Shown in pieces: positions 37,598 to 38,248 of a stretch of 64,000 nucleotides of DNA. Source of the stretch: Arenimonas terrae (GTDB lineage Bacteria; Pseudomonadota; Gammaproteobacteria; Xanthomonadales; Xanthomonadaceae); assembly GCF_006265115.1 (NCBI RefSeq), contig NZ_SMDR01000001.1, positions 1 through 64,000 of the forward strand. The letters run 5' to 3'. The position numbers and the translations under genes were made by a program. The notes beneath the pieces were generated by a model. The model worked only from the letters and a program-made list of their open reading frames with translations, ran no database searches and was not told where the DNA came from. The number at the start of each line of letters is the position of its first letter. Within the stretch, counting starts at the first letter, position 1.

Positions 37598-37772
37598 GGG
37601 GTTACTCGGTTCAGACGCGCCAGCCTGGGGCCGGCGGTCTAGAGCAAAGGATCTAGGCCGGCGATTCTATAGGGCTTGGGGGCATTTCTGTAGGCGGCCG
37701 GGATTTGGGGACCCGGCTGGGTCTGGGGCCGGGCCCGGTCCTGGCGATTGGACGCCCCACGTGGAGGTTTCG

Positions 37773-37810
37773 GTGCCGGGCTCGTTCGGGGCGACAGGTC
37801 GCCGTACGTT
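37773..37810 (+). repeat. Solo left end of the two-hairpin element
   Basis: The block beginning TGCCGGGCTCGTTCGGGGCG is a near copy of 37820-37856 and of the reverse complement of 38211-38248, which flank the two full elements. Here it stops a few bases into the stem arm and is not followed by the hairpin. It is probably a truncated third copy. Confidence 0.7.
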
Positions 37811-37819
37811 AGGTCTCGT

Positions 37820-37971
37820 TGCCGGGCTCGTTCGAGGCGATAGGCCGCCGCACGAGGGAACTTTCCCGGACACGCCGTGAATACGTCCATGTAGGCTCTT
37901 CAGCGACGTCCATGTCGCTGAAGGTCCGGAAAAGTTCCCTCGCACGACGGCCTGTGGTCGACCAGGGCCGG
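37820..37971 (+). repeat. Two-hairpin element, copy A
   Basis: An outer 19-bp arm at 37853-37871 pairs with 37924-37942 with one mismatch. Inside are a 26-nt spacer (37872-37897) and a perfect 10-bp hairpin, CTTCAGCGAC (37898-37907) with GTCGCTGAAG (37914-37923), closing a 6-nt loop GTCCAT. Conserved flanks of about 30 bp lie on both sides. Copy B in inverted orientation has the same dimensions but different stem sequences. Confidence 0.88.
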
Positions 37972-38094
37972 ACTGTCGAACTCGAAGAGCTGGGCGAGCC
38001 CGCCGCTGCGTTGCCCCCTGGGCGCAGCTCCAAGTCCGTTGCTGGACACTTGCCAGAATCCAGGACAAGCGAGCGCTTGCCTGAAATCGATTTC

Positions 38095-38248
38095 CCGGCC
38101 CTGATGGTCCGCAGGTCGTCGTGCGTGAGGTCTTTTTCTGCGGCTTCGAAAACAGGGACGTTTTCGAAGAGCCTCCATGGATGGATTCACGGCGTCCGCA
38201 GAAAAAGACCTCACGTACGGCGGCCTATCGCCTCGAACGATCCCGGCC
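38095..38248 (-). repeat. Two-hairpin element, copy B
   Basis: The outer arms GTGAGGTCTTTTTCTGCGG (38125-38143) and its exact complement (38196-38214) form a perfect 19-bp stem. The inner hairpin CTTCGAAAAC (38144-38153) pairs with GTTTTCGAAG (38160-38169) around a 6-nt loop, and the 26-nt spacer is 38170-38195. On the minus strand the loop (GTCCCT), the spacer and the flanks match copy A, but both stems differ. Confidence 0.88.

Follow-up and report, generated by a model that had tools for sequence, protein, structure and literature searches.

A mobile YPAL-type repeat with two conserved ANGGAN hexaloops and rewritten stems in Gammaproteobacteria, a candidate ligand of CsrA/RsmA

Two inverted repeats, A and B, that face each other between accA and dnaE in Arenimonas terrae almost certainly make up one mobile repeat, MITE-like and belonging to the YPAL family, of which each forms one half. 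They were examined in a window of 64,000 nucleotides, the whole stretch of DNA analysed (contig NZ_SMDR01000001.1, positions 1 to 64,000). Copies of the family keep their loops while the stems are rewritten in compensated form, and this makes it a clean case of such conservation even if CsrA plays no part. Our best reading, to which we give an even chance, is that the element is a mobile, strand-specific RNA cargo that binds CsrA/RsmA. If this is true, the Csr/Rsm network of many Gammaproteobacteria would have an overlooked, mobile component in repeats until now classed as intergenic palindromes.

Results

Two copies of one fold between accA and dnaE

The spacer is bounded by accA (start 37597, - strand) and dnaE (stop 38283, - strand), both confirmed by NCBIfam equivalogs. 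A sequence-only reading of this DNA had described A and B as copies of one design that face each other between these genes, and its coordinates and anatomy hold: both copies take one three-helix fold, A on the - strand and B on the + strand (Table 1). Both are among the 59 rows from which the covariance model R1 was built, and the R1 alignment marks zero broken pairs in either. When the window was searched with R1, the places of A and B were the only significant ones, the third listed match having an E-value of 0.68.

Table 1. Features of the composite repeat in the window, and of related loci elsewhere
Feature	Position	Strand	Evidence or remark
Composite repeat unit: inverted copies A and B inside outer inverted flanks	37821..38248	.	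flank inverted repeat; near-full copies elsewhere
Outer inverted flanks of composite	37821-37864 / 38204-38247		inverted-repeat search
Left flank alone, extra tandem copy 46 bp before A's flank	37765..37808	+	direct repeat D1, 86% identity to 37811-37854
Copy A, 92-nt three-helix fold	37852..37943	-	cmsearch with model R1: 97.6 bits, E 1.6e-22
Copy A outer stem, 3' arm	37854..37871	-	pairs with 37924-37941; R1 positions 73-90
Copy A conserved core hairpin: GCC, UAC, hexaloop AUGGAC, GUA, bulge UUCAC, GGC	37874..37896	-	
Copy A core hexaloop AUGGAC (ANGGAN)	37885..37890	-	sequence and consensus structure
Copy A inner hexaloop AUGGAC (ANGGAN)	37908..37913	-	inverted repeat I13
Copy A outer stem, 5' arm	37924..37941	-	R1 positions 3-20
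Copy B, 92-nt three-helix fold	38124..38215	+	cmsearch with model R1: 95.2 bits, E 6.1e-22
Copy B outer stem, 5' arm	38126..38143	+	pairs with 38196-38213
Copy B inner hexaloop AGGGAC (ANGGAN)	38154..38159	+	inverted repeat I14
Copy B conserved core hairpin: GCC, UCC, hexaloop AUGGAU, GGA, bulge UUCAC, GGC	38171..38193	+	
Copy B core hexaloop AUGGAU (ANGGAN)	38177..38182	+	sequence and consensus structure
Copy B outer stem, 3' arm	38196..38213	+	
Copies with second hairpin in loop	L263:11069-11208, L232:1598-1737, L232:14669-14807, L241:19009-19149, L255:15381-15520		
ISAzo13-type transposon, terminal repeats matching one set of core-bearing miniature elements	L252:16554-17886		

All 18 outer pairs of the model are standard in both copies, and the inner arms are fully paired around 6-nt loops (A, 37898-37907/37914-37923; B, 38144-38153/38160-38169). 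Outer pairing extends further, to 36 bp in A (5 mismatches) and 32 bp in B (3 mismatches). The one "mismatch" noted earlier in A, C-A on the + strand, is a G-U on the - strand on which A folds. The spacer between the stems is conserved as claimed, with 23 of 26 positions matching by our count rather than 22. Several near-full copies align to window positions 37820-38247, which sets the limits of the repeated unit, a composite of about 428 bp. Three 44-nt tandem repeats of A's left flank, spaced at 46-47 bp and 68-100% identical to the reference, occupy 37718-37854; some other copies are likewise preceded by extra flanks.

Stems covary across the class

The collection comprised 162 unique elements, 105 in the standard register, 44 in another register, 11 without an outer stem and 2 at contig edges. 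Removal of near-duplicates from the 105 left 59 non-redundant rows, alignment A1. The core letters of A1 are invariant by construction, being fixed by the search pattern, which left the stems, A47, G71 and the letters of the inner loop unconstrained. Alignments A2 to A4, whose rows were picked by the model rather than by the exact core, provide a less biased check, although alignments fitted to a structure lean towards it.

RNAalifold, given the alignment alone, recovered the outer stem, the inner hairpin and the core hairpin with its 5-nt bulge. Over the 34 pairs and 59 copies of A1, 94.1% of pair cells were paired, against 61.9% in shuffled alignments and 37-47% in slid ones; cells changed on both sides numbered 630 against 169 shuffled, and the covariation score was 0.822 against 0.192. 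Double changes occurred somewhere in 18/18 outer pairs and 9/10 inner pairs. Counting how many pairs show any double change hardly separates A1 from its shuffles (28 against 26.5; 57 of 500 shuffles reached 28), unlike the count of cells and the covariation score. The core stem covaried among hits chosen by the model, in 2/3 and 3/3 pairs of its two parts in A3 and in 2/3 and 2/3 pairs in A4. The earlier proposal that compensated stems imply selection on structure is therefore supported, both by this strong class-wide covariation and by the strand bias of outer-stem wobbles described below. Most copies have paired stems; 11 of the 162 have no outer stem by the criterion used.

In minimum-energy folds, the inner hexaloop was open in only 16 of the 59 rows and the core hexaloop in only 11. 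Near the base of the inner stem (A1 columns 23 and 44), an almost invariant U stands opposite a base with which it does not pair in 31 of 59 rows, a mismatch that is kept. Several Methylotuvimicrobium copies have a second hairpin repeat, some 50 nt long, inserted into the loop of the inner hairpin (Table 1).

The family is widespread and mobile

A search for the 25-nt core pattern in the 3.3-Mb genome of A. terrae gave 29 exact matches, compared with 0 for the reversed control. The majority are B-type, with the inner stem TTCGAAAAC or one letter different from it, while the A-type inner stem (TTCAGCGAC) was found in L001 and L018. At three further loci (L005, L021 and L025) the inner stems differ and the flanks are unrelated; L021, moreover, no longer has an outer stem. 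Facing A-type/B-type pairs recur, as L001/L002 and L017/L018 in this genome and as L039/L040 and L043/L044 in the genus genome G003, and a facing A-like/B pair is present in G023. Since these pairs recur, we conclude that A and B represent separate subfamilies that have been united in a composite, near-full copies of which recur in this genome and in G003.

Empty and filled sites could be compared in the genus. Both anchor genes lay in the stretch taken from 20 of 27 genus genomes, the other 7 being not assessable. The composite occupies the accA–dnaE spacer in three of the 20 (G000, G003 and G023) and is absent from 17, whose spacers are 13-200 bp long; relatives with empty sites, a sign of mobility that the sequence-only reading had suggested looking for, thus exist. 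In G003 the order is opposite to that in G000, with the B-type copy nearer to accA, as would be expected if the inverted flanks had recombined or the element had inserted separately. In G023, the composite sits between two inverted REP-like arms. By eye, palindromic inserts of other kinds are present in the composite-free spacers of L179 (G022), L180 (G020) and L183 (G011), namely a pair of REP-like sequences, one long palindrome and a further inverted repeat. These inserts suggest that the accA–dnaE spacer may be an insertion hot spot.

Beyond the genus, a scan of named genomes with the core pattern returned at least 119 matching stretches. Among the 80 matches listed, all are, judging by their names, presumably Gammaproteobacteria, save one titled only "Proteobacteria bacterium". 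Of 321 class genomes, 25 had matches to a pattern whose 10-nt middle was left free, although three of the 25 (G099, G238 and G338) look like chance matches. The covariance model, built and run on genomes along the lines proposed earlier, revealed further copies, with matches in 39 of 185 class genomes. Methylotuvimicrobium (G308) had 345 matches to the free-middle pattern and 147 model matches in 800 kb (E ≤0.01), which extrapolates to some 900 in the whole genome. Phage sequences searched with the composite as query gave no match, and a plasmid search with the Sodalis copy gave 10 Pantoea records, at 77.5-78.7% identity over 40% of the query.

Wobble pairs point to one strand

A one-sided transition in a stem leaves a G-U pair on one strand and an A-C mismatch on the other, so the wobble count suggests which strand is functional. 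Read on the GGA strand, the outer stems of the 59 rows contained 54 G-U and 4 A-C, and the copies leaning this way numbered 29 to 0. An earlier, overlapping count on 64 non-redundant stems gave 68 versus 14, and 31 copies versus 3; these two counts and the whole-inner-stem count given below share loci and are not independent. In Methylotuvimicrobium, where both stems could be parsed in 94 of 145 cores, the outer stems held 121 G-U and 27 A-C, and a cruder outer-stem count over all copies gave 197 to 148. Transitions outside the stems were strand-symmetric there (29/22 and 36/38). The RNA fold was more stable on the GGA strand in 48 of 59 rows. For the inner stem the bias is not settled, with G-U/A-C counts of 14/5 in the 59 rows and 12/22 over whole inner stems; inner-stem pairs adjoining the loop are Watson-Crick almost throughout (599 of 614).

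We take the wobble bias to mean that selection acts on a single strand, whether of RNA or of DNA, and infer that it is RNA. Strand-specific selection at the RNA level is, in our judgement, probable.

Both loops carry the CsrA-type motif

An inner hairpin was obtained for 151 of the 162 unique elements; 15 odd-length loops were left out and 136 were read as hexamers. The ANGGAN motif was nearly invariant in these 136 loops (A in 131, G in 132, G in 131 and A in 134), although no search pattern fixed the inner loop, and the hexaloop was closed by C-G in 126. In A1, the same positions were conserved in 57, 59, 59 and 59 of 59 rows. The core loop on the GGA strand shows the same ANGGAN motif. In the model-chosen alignments, the inner and core loops read A.GGA in 26 and 26 of 27 rows (A3), in 34 and 37 of 38 (A4), and in 93 and 96 of the 110 full-length rows among 147 (A2).

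ANGGAX in a hexaloop is given in passages of a published study as the high-affinity consensus of CsrA/RsmE (PMC4005645), and passages of another state that CsrA-type motifs are generally paired because CsrA is a homodimer (PMC4333381). By sequence and consensus structure, the loops of the family are ANGGAX hexaloops on a stem, and on this likeness CsrA/RsmA could as readily as not be their partner. A transcript of the GGA strand would carry its two hexaloops at a distance of 23 nt from each other, one for each of the identical RNA-binding faces of the CsrA/RsmA dimer. Copies might then act as CsrA ligands, either as a decoy in trans or as a CsrA-docked 3' end in cis. In this proposal the loops and the fold are what is read, so that the stems would drift freely while pairing is kept.

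The gene csrA was found in this genome and in 36 of the 39 model-positive genomes, the three without it being 67-88% complete; this co-occurrence is weak evidence, as 272 of 321 class genomes have csrA. Where csrA was not found, ANGGA was present in both loops in 14 of 16 rows (G128), 9 of 9 (G255) and 2 of 2 (G159), all of these being draft assemblies of 88, 98 and 67% completeness. This retention stands against the CsrA reading, as do the UUCAC bulge, for which CsrA offers no explanation, the small share of minimum-energy folds in which the hexaloops are open, the unsettled strand bias of the inner stem, the cruder outer-stem count in Methylotuvimicrobium, the opposite strand chosen for the Rfam model Ysr224, and the lack of a gene-orientation bias and of better-preserved sense copies described below.

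Carriers and gene context

Of the 159 cores found in 800 kb of Methylotuvimicrobium, 86 lay within short elements with TATACC...GGTATA ends, 8 within elements with other ends and 65 in neither. These other ends also stand on both sides of a 1.3-kb stretch that encodes a 411-aa frame with a 351-bit match to an ISAzo13 DDE transposase domain. Because it occurs inside elements with different ends, the core appears as the cargo of more than one kind of miniature transposon in this genus.

Orientation relative to genes was counted with a codon-usage caller made for the analysis, not with the annotation, and copies inside a called frame were dropped (10 among L049 and later, 5 among L001-L048, 7 in Methylotuvimicrobium). 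No gene-orientation bias was found, tandem sense/antisense counts being 23/28 (L049 and later), 12/18 (L001-L048) and 32/33 (Methylotuvimicrobium). Sense copies were not better preserved than antisense ones (p 0.33 and 0.63). These counts give no sign of a cis role tied to the orientation of the host gene.

Discussion

Weighing the explanations

A single-stranded DNA hairpin of the GGA strand could also serve as substrate of a transposase or of another ssDNA-binding protein, with the loops as recognition letters. The element is mobile, the wobble bias speaks more for a single strand than for a cruciform, and the absent gene-orientation bias would suit a role at the DNA level. We nevertheless consider this unlikely: in Methylotuvimicrobium the core sits in elements with different terminal repeats, one set flanking the ISAzo13-type transposase gene, so transposition there seems to rely on the ends and not on the core; the loop positions that vary are the very ones that the CsrA consensus leaves free; and no core adjoins a Y1 transposase gene in the 32 of 43 Y1 places that were examined. 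These same places bear on the proposal of a REP/RAYT system, in which REP-like hairpins are moved by a cognate Y1 transposase. REPs carry GTAG or GGAG 5' of the hairpin, and here these letters precede the inner hairpin when the opposite strand is read; BIMEs are facing repeat pairs, as are A and B; and a search of 12 copy-bearing genomes gave a Y1_Tnp match in 10. However, none of the examined Y1 places has a core with up to 3 mismatches within about 1.5 kb (one match with 4 mismatches is at chance level), the copy-bearing genomes G376 and G298 have no Y1_Tnp match, and pairing inside the core hairpin can explain GTAG/GGAG. With no Y1 gene flanked by cores in these places, REP/RAYT mobilisation is unsupported and we regard it as very improbable indeed.

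The element might instead be an RNA with another partner or role, for instance a stabiliser of mRNA 3' ends or an RNase III site. Its strand-biased fold agrees with this, as does the excess of copies in convergent over divergent gaps (28 to 6 for L049 and later, 7 to 2 for L001-L048); yet that excess is absent in Methylotuvimicrobium (28 to 30, against a background of 75 to 76), and a plain stabilising hairpin needs no two like conserved hexaloops. We rate such a role as low in probability, on a par with the DNA hairpin. The sequence-only reading had also raised a copying mechanism that remakes one arm from the other. Long near-perfect palindromes are known substrates for polymerase template switching, which could copy arm to arm (quasi-palindrome correction), so that letters drift and pairing is kept with no selection at all. 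By itself, arm copying predicts neither wobbles mainly on one strand of the outer stem nor a fixed set of loops and bulge, which makes it the less likely reading. Methylotuvimicrobium transitions are asymmetric in the left arm (63/23) and not outside the stems, yet the right arm is symmetric (40/37) and the core shows some asymmetry (64/39). We consider this explanation improbable, well below either of the two roles for a single strand just discussed.

Returning to CsrA/RsmA as partner, a further step seems possible but is held only tentatively: the family may be a class-wide parasitic or domesticated CsrA decoy, a strand-specific RNA with two hexaloops, moved between unrelated miniature transposons and reaching hundreds of copies in some genomes. 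Such a decoy would supply its host with a large, evolvable pool of CsrA/RsmA sites and tie mobile-element load to global post-transcriptional control.

Comparison with known systems

REP and BIME elements are likewise dispersed intergenic hairpins, often in facing pairs. The present family differs from REP/BIME with RAYT by having two hairpins and a long outer stem, and by the lack of a Y1 transposase adjoining the core in the places examined. The CsrA-sequestering RNAs of the CsrB/RsmY/RsmZ type also present GGA hexaloops of ANGGAX form on hairpins. Each of those is one multi-hairpin gene, while here there are two loops per unit and many mobile copies. None of the CsrB/RsmY/RsmZ Rfam models scored above threshold in 17 loci and none was listed for the window; a search of family copies gave a sub-threshold RsmW match of 10.7 bits. 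The TwoAYGGAY RNA (RF01731) is described in passages of PMC4333381 as two AYGGAY-loop hairpins with a poorly conserved external stem, for which a CsrA-binding role was proposed; in contrast, the element here has one hairpin with a UUCAC bulge and is a dispersed repeat. As a candidate match for the window and family copies, TwoAYGGAY was rejected, with no match at E up to 10.

The closest relative is YPAL/RU-2 of Yersinia, for which De Gregorio 2006 is reportedly the main paper. The core is also that of Rfam RF02770 Ysr224, modelled on the strand opposite to the GGA strand. At its gathering cut-off of 70, the Sodalis locus L110 passes with 82.9 bits and none of the other 16 of 17 loci does; copy A reaches 26.6 bits and copy B is not listed. 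RU-2 shares with the present family a core hairpin whose loop is ANGGAN, an inner loop of that form and an outer stem, and contains GCCTACATGGATGTATTTACGGC, which has 2 differences in 23 nt from copy A (PMC2759123). Its inner loop AAGGAT and outer arms were read by eye from this sequence; on a rigid 92-nt template only 17 of 34 pairs form, because RU-2 is one nucleotide off that template. Sharing the core, the ANGGAN loops and the outer stem with RU-2/YPAL, the copies in the window are homologues of a known element, and the earlier view that no named family shows this design does not survive. As far as the available passages go, YPAL is mobile, with known empty sites and targets that span or adjoin dyads (PMC2229807). 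The empty and filled accA–dnaE spacers of the genus repeat this likeness, and the REP-like arms flanking the composite in G023 recall the dyad targets reported for YPAL in the same passages (PMC2229807).

Searches of the literature text did not find the core 15-mers, and the titles listed for 10- and 11-mers were unrelated to bacterial repeats; a link of these repeats to CsrA was not found in the literature searched, many subscription papers lying outside it. A described family exists, and its stem rewriting is not mentioned in the available passages on YPAL. Four features of the family were not found described in the literature searched: its wide range, its rewritten stems, its strand bias and its loops of CsrA type. 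Apparently new are the outer-stem wobbles that fit one strand, the ANGGAN loops on that same strand, and, in Methylotuvimicrobium, the carriage of the core by miniature transposons whose ends differ. The passages used place YPAL in enterobacteria, whereas the family here spans the class; stems and flanks differ from those of YPAL, and in A. terrae two inverted copies are joined in one 428-bp composite.
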